Assembly (NCBI GenBank): GCA_013289585.1
Contig: JABCZR010000003.1
Coordinates: 124,001 to 188,000 of the forward strand
Direction: 5' to 3'
Source of the DNA: Acidobacteriota bacterium
GTDB lineage: Bacteria > Acidobacteriota > Terriglobia > Acidiferrales > UBA7541
Length of the DNA stretch: 64,000 nt
Of the stretch, positions 21,173 through 28,795 are shown piece by piece. Made by a program: the position numbers and the translations under genes. Each line of letters starts with the position of its first letter. The stretch's first letter is position 1. The notes below the pieces were generated by a model. That model searched no databases and was not told where the DNA came from. It worked only from the letters and a program-made list of their open reading frames with translations.

Positions 21173-22789
21173 ATGGATTGTCGTCCCCTCGCGTTTCGCC
21201 AACTCCCCCACCAGCCAAAACTCTTTCTGGATTACCTCGATCGCTTTGAGCGTGTGAAGGCGTTTTACGTTCTTCCGCCCACCATGAAAGCGGCCACGCG
21301 CGCGGCACGGAAGTTCGACTACCCGATTGAGCGGCGTGCGGAAGTGGCGCGGATTCTGCGGGCGCAGAACACCGCGTACGGCGCGGGTGAGGAGACACAG
21401 ACAAATCTGGAGCGGCTCGAAAAGGGTGCGGTCGCCGTTGTCACGGGCCAGCAGGTCGGATTGTTCAGCGGTCCGGCATATGCAATCTACAAAGCGCTGA
21501 CAGCTGTGCAGATCGCGGAGGAACTGACGCGCGGCGGAATTCAGGCGGTACCGGTCTTCTGGATGGCGACGGAAGATCACGATGTAGATGAAGTGAGGCA
21601 TGCGACCTGGTTTGAACAGGGAAAGCTGAAACGGTTTGAATTGCCGGCGTCGAAGGCGGAAGCGGGAAGACCGGTTGGGGAAATTGTACTTGGGCCAGAA
21701 ATCGAGCCGCTGGCCGGAGAAGCTGCGGAATTACTCTCGAATCAGGGAAGCGATTTGCTGGCGCAGTTCCTGACGGAGAGTTACCGCGCGGAAGAGACGT
21801 ACGGCAGCGCGTTCGGAAAACTGTTTGCGCGACTTTTCGCGCAGCAGGGATTGATTCTCATGAATCCGCTCGATCCGGGATTGCATCGCGTTGCCGCGCC
21901 GCTGTATCAGCATGCGCTGGCGGAGCGGGATGTCCTGAACGAAAAGTTATTGCAGCGCGGAAAGGACCTGGATCGGGCGGGATACGATGCGCAGGTCAAG
22001 GTGACGTCGCGGAGCACGCTGTTGTTTTATCTCGGCGGCTGGGTGCGGCAAGTCGTGACGGCGAGCGCTGACAAATTTCAAGCGGGGGGAAAAACCTGGA
22101 CCCGGGATGAACTCGTTCATCTGACCCATACCGAACCGGAGAAATTCAGTCCGAATGCGTTGTTCCGGCCAGTGGTGCAGGATTATCTGTTGCCGACCGC
22201 AGCGTATGTCGCGGGGCCGGCGGAGATTTCCTATTTCGCGCAATCCGAAGTTGTGTACCGGCAACTGCTGGGCCGCATGCCGGTGATGCTGCCACGCGCG
22301 GGATTTACGCTGGTGGATGCGAAGGCCGCGAAACTGCTGCGCAAGTACAGCCTGAAAGTCGAGGACGTCTGGGCGGGTTCGCAGGATTTGCGGCACAAGA
22401 TGGAAGGCGCATCGGTGCCGAAGGGCTTGTCGAAAATATTCGAGCGCGACCAGAAGCAGATTCAGAAATTGCTGACGCAGCTCGGAAAACAGATTACAAA
22501 ACTCGATTCCACGCTGCAGGACACGGTGGAACGAACAAAAAAGAGAATCGAATTCCACCTCGAGAAGCTGCGGCGGAAAGCAGGAAAAGCGCAAGACCGA
22601 AAGGCCGGGTTGATCTCCGCACACATGCAATACCTGGAATCGCTCCTGAATCCGCACAAAGGTCTGCAATCCCGCGAATTGTGTCTTCTTCCATTTCTGG
22701 CGCGGTGGGGCTCGGGAGGATTAAACGAGCTGCAAAAACTCTCTTCGGGAAAAAAAATCGGGCATCACTTCATCGTACAACTTCCGTAG
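21173..22789 (+). CDS. bshC: bacillithiol biosynthesis cysteine-adding enzyme BshC
   Basis: The gene encodes 538 aa, the normal family length. Diagnostic segments are AVVTGQQVGLFSGPAYAIYK, VPVFWMATEDHDVDEV, LPTAAYVAGPAEISYFAQS and a C-terminal coiled coil (about 410-480). BshC is thought to join cysteine to glucosaminyl-malate in the last step of bacillithiol synthesis. The other two genes, bshA and bshB, are not in the window. Presence supports a bacillithiol-using organism outside Firmicutes, which is known for Acidobacteria, Bacteroidetes and Deinococci. Confidence 0.93.
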   Translation: MDCRPLAFRQLPHQPKLFLDYLDRFERVKAFYVLPPTMKAATRAARKFDYPIERRAEVARILRAQNTAYGAGEETQTNLERLEKGAVAVVTGQQVGLFSGPAYAIYKALTAVQIAEELTRGGIQAVPVFWMATEDHDVDEVRHATWFEQGKLKRFELPASKAEAGRPVGEIVLGPEIEPLAGEAAELLSNQGSDLLAQFLTESYRAEETYGSAFGKLFARLFAQQGLILMNPLDPGLHRVAAPLYQHALAERDVLNEKLLQRGKDLDRAGYDAQVKVTSRSTLLFYLGGWVRQVVTASADKFQAGGKTWTRDELVHLTHTEPEKFSPNALFRPVVQDYLLPTAAYVAGPAEISYFAQSEVVYRQLLGRMPVMLPRAGFTLVDAKAAKLLRKYSLKVEDVWAGSQDLRHKMEGASVPKGLSKIFERDQKQIQKLLTQLGKQITKLDSTLQDTVERTKKRIEFHLEKLRRKAGKAQDRKAGLISAHMQYLESLLNPHKGLQSRELCLLPFLARWGSGGLNELQKLSSGKKIGHHFIVQLP

Positions 22790-24530: not shown

Positions 24531-25733
24531 ATGAAGAAACTTGGAATCTATGTGCAGGTGCCGTTTTGTCAGACGAAGTGTACGTATTGCAATTTCCATA
24601 CGGGAGTTGTTTCGACTTCCCGATTTGCCCCTTATGCCGAGGCAGTCTGTAGTGAGATTCGCGGGCATAAGGAATTGTTGAAGGCGGCCGGGGTAGGGTT
24701 GAACCAAGATATTGCAGGATTCCAGACCAGACAGGATTCGTTGCTCCACAAAGATCTGGTGGACACGGTTTACATCGGCGGGGGTACGCCAAGCCTTCTG
24801 GATCCCATCCACCTTCAAAATATTCTGGATGCGATAAGAAGTGTATTTATCACGGACCTTTCAGAGGTGACGCTGGAGGCCGATCCGGAGACGATCGAGG
24901 GGGAGAAGGCGGCAGCGTGGGTGCGGGCGGGGATTAACCGCGTTAGTTTTGGGTTACAGTCGTTCGTGGATCGGGAGCTGGTTGCCTCGGGACGTATGCA
25001 CCGGCGGGCCGATATTTACATGGCAGCACCAATTCTCCGCCAGGCTGGGATTTCCAACATCAGCTTTGATTTGATTGCGGGGCTGCCTCACCAGACGAGG
25101 GAGAGCTGGCGGCAATCGCTGGATGAACTGCTCGGGTTGGCGTCGGAGCATGTTTCGGTCTACATGCTGGAGGTGGATGAGGGCAGCCGGTTGGGAAAAG
25201 AGTTGATTCAGGGCGGCGGGCGCTACAGCGCGGGGGCGGTGCCTAGCGAAGACGAGATGGCTGAGTTTTATGAAACGGGGCAAGAGGTTTTGTAGGGCGC
25301 GGGCTATCACCACTATGAGATTTCGAATTGGGCGAAGCCGGGGTATGAATCGCGGCACAATTTGAAGTATTGGCGGCGCGAGCCATATTTGGGATTTGGG
25401 GCGGGGGCGCACTCGTTTTCGGGAATGGAGCGCTGGGCGAATGCCCACGATGCGGCGGAATATGTGAAGGCGATTGAGGCCGGGCGGGTGCCGCTGGAAC
25501 AGCATGAGAAATTGACGGCGGAGAGCGCGCTGGAAGAGGAATTGTTTTTGGGTTTGAGACAACTTGATGGAATCGATCTCGCGCAGATTGAGCGGGGATA
25601 TGGTGTGAGTTTGGCGGGGCGGTTTGAAAGGCTGTCCACAGCAGGATTAGTGGAGAGAGCGGGCAACGTGGTGAAGCTTGCAGCGGGCAGATTGAGTGTT
25701 TCGAATGAGGTGTTTGTGGAGTTGATGCGGTAA
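24531..25733 (+). pseudogene. hemW: HemW-like radical SAM protein interrupted by an in-frame TAG
   Basis: The frame runs 401 codons but codon 255 (25293-25295) is TAG. Before it are the radical SAM cysteines Cys13, Cys17 and Cys20 (CQTKCTYCNF), IGGGTPSLL and ISFDLIAGLPHQTRESW. After it, in the same frame, HYEISNWAKPGYESRHNLKYW-type HemW sequence continues (YEISNWAKPGYESRHN, FGAGAHSF) to a normal end. So a single amber codon splits an otherwise intact protein between VL and GAGYHHYE. HemW is a heme chaperone related to coproporphyrinogen oxidase HemN. An extra segment of about 18 residues near 58-76 is also unusual. The cause may be mutation, sequencing error or suppression. TAGAGT lies 9 bp before the ATG. 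Confidence 0.85.
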
Positions 25734-25814: not shown

Positions 25815-26939
25815 ATGAGTTACACGATGGCAAAGGGGAATCAGCGGGTGGATCCAGATCAACTGGAAGAAGAGCTAAAAAGTCCAGCGGGGATTGTGGA
25901 TCTGCGCAGCGACACGGTGACGCGGCCGACGGCGGAGATGCGCCGGGCGATGGCAGGGGCCGAAGTCGGCGATGACGTTTACGGGGAAGACCCGACGGTC
26001 AACCGGCTGGAACGGCGCGCGGCGGAGATTTTCGGGAAAGAAGCGGCGCTGTTTGTGCCGACGGGCTGCATGGGGAATCTCATCGCGATCAAGACGTGGA
26101 CGCATCATGGCGACGAGGTAATTTGCGAAGAACGGAGCCATGTGAATTTGTATGAGTTGGCTTCGATGTCGGCGATTGCCGGGTGCATGCCGCGCGTTGC
26201 GCGCGGAGAGGACGGAATTCTGAGGTGGCAGGAAATTGAGGCGGTGATCCGGCCGAAAATTTATTACGATTCGCAGACGGCGCTGATCTGCTTGGAAAAC
26301 ACGATGAATATGTGGGGCGGGACCGTCTATCCGACTTCGCAGGTGGAGGAGATTTGCGATCACGCACACGCGGCGGGATTGAAGGTGCACCTGGATGGTG
26401 CGCGAGTTTTCAATGCGGCGACGGCGCTGGGGGAAAAAGTCGCGCATATGACGCGCAAAGTCGATTCCGTGATGTTCTGCCTTTCGAAAGGATTGGGCGC
26501 GCCGGTGGGATCGATGATTGCAGGGTCGAAGGCGTTCATCGAGAAGGGGCGCGTGTATCGCAAGATGTTTGGCGGGGGCATGCGGCAGGCGGGAGTGATC
26601 GCGGCGGCTGGGCTGATCGCGCTGGAGAAGTCGCCAGGGCGATTGCATGTGGACCACGAGAATGCCAAGCGGCTGGCCGAGGGGATCGCGGAAATTCCGG
26701 GATTAGGGATTGACCCGAAGAAAGTGCGATCCAATATTGTGATTTTTGATTGTTCGAAAACAGGAAAGACGGCGGTGGAGCTGTGCGATGCGCTGCATCC
26801 ACAAGGAGTCTGGGCACAGGATACCGCGCTGCATTCGGTGCGAATGGTGACGCATTGTGATGTGGATCGGGCGGGAGTGGAACGGGCGCTGGTGGTGTTG
26901 AGGGATGTCGTGGCGAAAACACAGAGGAAGGGTGCATGA
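25815..26939 (+). CDS. threonine aldolase family PLP enzyme
   Basis: The gene encodes 374 aa. It is a fold-type I pyridoxal-phosphate enzyme: [20 protein letters not shown] at the start, [37 protein letters not shown] and Lys225 ([12 protein letters not shown]), the cofactor lysine. The family cleaves L-threonine or L-allo-threonine to glycine and acetaldehyde. The N-terminus is about 25 residues longer than usual; the ATG at 25827 is another possible start. The stop overlaps the start of the M2 peptidase by 4 bp (ATGA), so the two are translationally coupled. Confidence 0.92.
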
Positions 26940-28795
26940 GAATTCGAATCGGGAATGCTTTTGAGAAGGTTGCCCTAGCGGCATTAGCGGTAATGGCGTC
27001 GAGCTTGATTGCGGTGGCGCAGGATGCTGCTCCGAAAAAGCCGGGGCAGAGGACGCCTCCCACCGTTGCAGAGGCGACTGCGTTTGTGAATGACGCAGAG
27101 GAGCGCTACTACGAGCTGACGAACAAGGCGCAAAGAGCGCAGTGGGTGCAGGAGAATTTCATCACCGACGATACAGAGGGAATCGCGGCGCAGGCGGGCG
27201 AGGAGTTGAATTCGTTCAGTGCGGAGATGTCCAAGCAAGCGCACCGATTCGATACGTTGCAGCTGTCGCCGGAATTGGCGCGAAAGATGCTGCTGCTGAA
27301 ACTTTCGACAAACTTTCCCGCGCCTGCGGATCCAAAGGAACAAAAAGAGCTGGCGCAGGTCCTGGCGTCGCTGGATGGCGATTATGGGAAAGGGAAGTGG
27401 TGTCCCGGAGGCGCAGGCGAAAAGTGCCTGGATATTACGGCCATCGAAAAGATCATGGCGAAAAGCCGTGACCCGGAAGAGTTGAAGAAAGCGTGGATCG
27501 GCTGGCATGCCGTGGGCGCGCCGATGCGGCAGCGCTATGCGGAGATGGTGGAGCTGGGGGACAAAGGGTCGCGGGAATTGGGTTTTGCGGATGCGGGTGC
27601 GTTGTGGCGTTCGAATTACGACATGCCGCCGGACCAGCTCGCGAAAGAAGCGGACCGGCTGTGGGAGCAATTGAGGCCGCTGTATCTATCGCTGCATGCG
27701 TATGTGCGCGGACAACTGCGGAAGAAATATGGAAACGAACTGGTGCCGCTGAACGGTCCGATTCCGGCTCATTTGCTGGGCAACCTCTGGAGCCAGGAAT
27801 GGAACAACGTTTATTCGCTGATGGATTCGCCGAAGCCTCCGCAGAGTTTTGACCTGACAAAGATTTTGCAGGACCGGCACACCGATGCGAGGGGCATGGT
27901 GCGGTATGGCGAAGGATTTTTCACCTCGCTGGGATTTGCGCCGCTGCCGAAGACATTTTGGGAGCGGTCGCTGTTTACAAAGCCGGCCGATCGCGACGTG
28001 GTTTGCCATGCCAGCGCGTGGGACGTGAATTCGAAAGACGATCTGCGAATCAAGATGTGCATCCAGGTGACGGAGGAAGACTTCCGAACGATCCATCACG
28101 AACTGGGGCACAATTTTTATCAGCGCGCCTATAACACGCAGCCGCCGCTTTTTCAAAACAGTGCAAACGACGGGTTTCATGAGGCGGTGGGGGACACGAT
28201 TGCGCTTTCGGTTACGCCGGAATATCTCAGGCAGATTGGGCTGATTGATGCAGTGCCGCCGGCGTCCGGGGACATCGACTATCTCATGCAGCAAGCATTG
28301 GAGAAGGTGGCGTTTCTGCCGTTCGGGTTGCTGGTGGACAAATGGCGGTGGGAAGTGTTCGCGGGCCAGGTGACGCCGGAGAACTACAACAAGGCGTGGT
28401 GGGAATTGCGGAAGAAGTATCAAGGAATCGCGCCGCCGGTCGAACGGACGGAAGCGGAATTTGATCCGGGGGCAAAATATCATGTAGCGGGAAACGTGCC
28501 GTATATGCGGTATTTTCTTGCGCGCATCCTGCAATTTCAGTTTCAGAGAGCGCTTTGCCGAGAGGCGGGGTACAGCGGTCCGCTGCATCGCTGCTCGATC
28601 TATGGGAACAAAACTGCCGGTGAGAGATTGAATAAGATGCTGGCGATGGGGCAGAGCAAGCCGTGGCAGGAAGAGCTGGAGACGCTGACGGGCGAGAAGC
28701 AGATGGACGCTTCGGCGCTGGCGGACTATTTTGCGCCGCTGAAAACGTGGCTCGACGAGCAGAACAAGGCCAATCACTATCCGGTGGGCTGGTAG
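26936..28795 (+). CDS. M2-family (angiotensin-converting enzyme-like) peptidase
   Basis: The gene encodes 619 aa with a signal peptide (about 1-29, ending SSLIAVAQ). Zinc ligands His388, His392 and Glu416 lie in [10 protein letters not shown] and [12 protein letters not shown], with the same 24-residue spacing as in human ACE. The C-terminal half has the ACE-like [19 protein letters not shown] and [21 protein letters not shown]2 peptidases remove C-terminal dipeptides. It is exported and probably works on peptides in the periplasm or outside the cell. It starts inside the stop of the threonine aldolase gene. Confidence 0.95.

Follow-up and report, generated by a model that had tools for sequence, protein, structure and literature searches.

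The locus raises the question of how a single TAG codon should be read when it lies within a frame that otherwise encodes the whole of the radical SAM heme chaperone HemW. The window analysed, a 64,000-nucleotide stretch from an Acidobacteriota bacterium, carries on its forward strand a hemW frame of 400 codons and a stop, running from the ATG at 24531 to the TAA at 25731-25733. The only internal stop is the TAG at 25293-25295, codon 255 of the 401. Under the standard code the product is 254 amino acids long (24531-25292) and contains the radical SAM domain (PF04055, residues 10-199) with the CxxxCxxC motif at residues 13-20. The sequence beyond the stop (25296-25730, same strand) remains conserved, with the YEISN and HNxxYW motifs and the HemN_C domain (PF06969). 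A sequence-only reading had proposed that this lone TAG interrupts an otherwise continuous HemW frame, and the profile comparison confirms it. The HemW profile TIGR00539 matches residues 6-254 at profile positions 3-221 (161.8 bits) and the part after the stop at positions 224-334 (91.9 bits), so that it runs straight across the TAG with neither shift nor gap. On the sequence comparison, homology of this extent on both sides of the stop cannot be a chance match. A frameshift at the TAG is ruled out as both sides are in the same frame. The whole-genome record has identical bases at the stop and one copy of the gene, though being the same assembly it is not an independent observation. No second intact HemW copy is present in the genome, the other match being to HemN only, and a plasmid search with the hemW gene gave no match.

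When read through the stop, the frame scores 270.7 bits against TIGR00539, above the curated cut-off of 205.4, which neither half passes alone. The assignment is also supported by full-length orthologues in the genus and by an AlphaFold model of the read-through product, with the stop modelled as alanine, which has a mean pLDDT of 90. As in other members of the HemW family, the read-through frame carries CxxxCxxC near the N-terminus, with C13, C17 and C20 invariant amongst 40 aligned sequences, together with HNxxYW and HemN_C; it differs in that just residues 1-254 would be made here under the standard code. In the same 40-sequence alignment 22 of the 61 invariant columns fall after the stop, including those of YEISN (residues 262-266) and HNxxYW (H276, N277, Y280 and W281; 25356-25373), and the latter is thus missing from the 254-residue product. 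HNxxYW is reported to be conserved in all bacterial HemW proteins, and in mycobacteria it has been linked to the binding of heme (PMC10320005). The interrupted gene belongs to the same superfamily as HemN, the oxygen-independent coproporphyrinogen III oxidase (TIGR00538), but it scores only 115 bits against that profile, far under the cut-off of 324.95, and is therefore not HemN. A separate intact HemN copy is found on contig C14, where it scores 568 bits.

Among named genomes, the closest relatives were assembled from soil metagenomes and belong to Acidobacteria group 2 and Candidatus Acidiferrales. In a protein search of 61 genomes HemW matches were found in 55, counting the window's own, although two of the 55, G026 and G051, gave weak matches only; none of the matches in relatives contains a stop. 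Within the genus, searched at the DNA level, 35 of 36 genomes carry hemW, the exception being an incomplete one, and the gene is present in all 24 good genomes. In the relatives the gene is one uninterrupted ORF, and the pair of separate genes that would have spoken against a nonsense change is not seen. Alignment at the TAG shows a sense codon in every relative aligned, as A, G, S, R, K, E or Q; since the column is so variable there is no single residue to be expected at this position. The codons at this column are those of loci L032 onward; for many of L003-L031 the codon letters came out wrong, probably through a reverse-strand location, but the residues are correct. One relative's hemW, L044 (G013:C3:10328-11452), lacks about 21 residues in frame (query 130-150). 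The gap takes in invariant residues of the GINRVSFGLQS stretch and may reflect either a true deletion or a fault in assembly.

Constraint was counted over columns invariant in all other sequences, using the window sequence and 26 relatives. The window hemW breaks none of the 48 such columns after the stop and two of the 72 before it, and the counts for the relatives lie in the same range except for L044 with its deletion. As a control for rate, the downstream neighbour was used, a threonine aldolase-like gene of the Beta_elim_lyase family (25815-26939, forward strand) that adjoins hemW in most relatives. In protein trees the terminal branch makes up 3.8% of the total tree length for the N-terminal part of hemW (0.21 of 5.56), 3.1% for the C-terminal part (0.14 of 4.47) and 2.9% for the neighbouring gene (0.065 of 2.23), and as these shares are alike hemW has not been accelerated. 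With the terminal branch at four-fold sites set between 0.3 substitutions per site, a deliberately low assumption, and 0.84, the value from the tree with the path to the root counted in, a simple Poisson calculation under a neutral model gives a rough upper bound on the time since loss of constraint of about 3-10% of the terminal branch. An old pseudogene, or one recognisable by decay, can be rejected on the single stop, the absence of any excess of broken invariant columns and the branch that is no faster. The suggestion that this is a single nonsense change rather than decay therefore holds, with relatives carrying single ORFs and no split gene; the stop is either false or no older than roughly the final 10% of the branch leading to this lineage.

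That the stop is false, with a single erroneous base, or a base from a minor strain picked by the assembler, standing in a draft genome of an organism whose hemW is intact, is a serious possibility, to which we give somewhat less than an even chance. It would account for the complete absence of decay and for the near universality of hemW in the genus, and a miscall in so variable a column would be betrayed by nothing else. The window genome, in 32 contigs and 97% complete, is probably a metagenome-assembled genome, as nearly all the named close relatives are labelled to be. The frequency of similar interruptions bears on this. About 43.6 kb of the window is covered by genes of relatives, and there, over non-overlapping ORFs, the hemW TAG is the only clean interruption, a stop at which eight relatives have sense codons and on either side of which identity is strong. 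To the extent of this coverage, the proposal that the window holds no other interrupted conserved frame stands. A homology-free scan for coding sequence by codon usage, run over 698 kb of the genome, picked out 25 same-frame pairs. In the majority of these the stop is followed by a start codon no more than a few codons away, as between neighbouring genes. In none of the five pairs checked with a more distant start does one Pfam domain or family extend across the stop, several having no Pfam match at all. With no other such split in about 698 kb, nonsense errors are not frequent in the assembly, which counts against a generally error-prone sequence; yet a single miscalled base could occur in an otherwise sound assembly.

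The sequence-only reading had left error, recent mutation and readthrough side by side. The last of these has become unlikely and the other two remain. Readthrough or suppression would insert an amino acid at the UAG at a useful frequency and so yield full-length HemW, perhaps to control its dosage. In its favour are the in-frame coding sequence past the stop, which is conserved and has been under selection, and a survey (PMC7918605) that argues for readthrough at some in-frame stops in bacteria. Programmed UAG readthrough would be expected to leave a conserved stop at the same codon, but none of the relatives has one. Nor was there evidence for a decoding system: release factor 1 (RF1) is intact, no amber suppressor with a CUA anticodon is found among the 44 tRNAs of the genome, a list that may be incomplete, and no pyrrolysine synthetase PylS was found, the sole PF01409 match being a single gene taken as PheS. 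RNA downstream of the stop is about as stably folded as shuffled sequences (z -1.07), and no Rfam family matches near it. Readthrough is accordingly considered very unlikely, and its more specific form, in which regulated readthrough of the UAG by some tRNA would give low-level hemW expression, a means particular to this lineage of adjusting heme delivery by dosage, is more doubtful still. Of the expected isoacceptors, the tRNA set lacks Gln-UUG, Arg-UCU, Ser-UGA and Ser-GGA, which is why the list may be incomplete, and has Asn-GUU and Cys-GCA twice each. A weak tRNA-Asp-like sequence with an offset anticodon (36.8 bits; G000:C9:182215-182273, L155 507-582) lies downstream of tRNA-Ile(gat) and is perhaps a remnant, or else a degenerate tRNA gene.

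The in-frame TAG is the one observation that would suggest a sense meaning for this codon in the organism. Twelve other ORFs in the window, chosen by length, end in TAG, and with RF1 present and no cognate tRNA found this reading is already contradicted and has hardly any credibility. Two open frames can be drawn, one of 254 residues and one of 123 residues from the TTG at 25362, as though HemW worked as two separately translated pieces. The next in-frame start, however, is 22 codons past the stop, so that a second part translated on its own would be short of motifs too, dropping YEISN and beginning inside HNxxYW. In the predicted structure position 255 lies close to where a helix (240-256) ends, more strands following from 260 on, and the split would fall at the helix end just before further strands of the barrel. 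Together with the single gene in relatives, this makes two working pieces extremely improbable. The 254-residue fragment is itself probably inactive, as it is without HNxxYW, the final barrel strands and the HemN_C domain.

The best explanation would seem to be a real and recent single-base nonsense change in an otherwise normal hemW that was under selection until very recently, a reading to which we give an even chance. The base would then be real in the organism. Taken at face value, ribosomes would terminate at codon 255 via RF1, and the fragment would retain the iron-sulphur site and lose the HNxxYW motif, the last strands of the barrel and HemN_C, such that HemW function would be lost in the strain. 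In-frame stops proved to be widespread and mostly short-lived, in the manner of polymorphisms, when bacterial genomes were surveyed (PMC7918605), and hemW fits this pattern without any special mechanism. It shares with those cases one nonsense codon, the lack of surrounding decay and a recent origin; it differs in being known from a single genome, which by itself shows neither polymorphism nor persistence. Against a real mutation, hemW is absent from just one of the 36 genomes of the genus, the incomplete one, and with the gene so nearly universal a fixed loss is unlikely a priori; the TAG may be a minor allele or a short-lived one. The observations are matched just as well by a consensus error, and sequence alone does not separate a real mutation from an error. 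The TAG is real in the sequence as given but is an ordinary kind of event.

For annotation, automatic pipelines would label hemW here as a pseudogene or as two fragments. In reconstructing the heme metabolism of this lineage of soil Acidobacteria, loss of HemW should not be inferred from one unverified base; if the base is real, this lineage lost a nearly universal heme chaperone only very recently. The surrounding genes include a BshC-family gene of bacillithiol biosynthesis upstream of hemW (21173-22789; PF10079 and PF24850). Two genes downstream of hemW is a full-length M2 peptidase of the angiotensin-converting enzyme family (26936-28795; PF01401, 770.8 bits).
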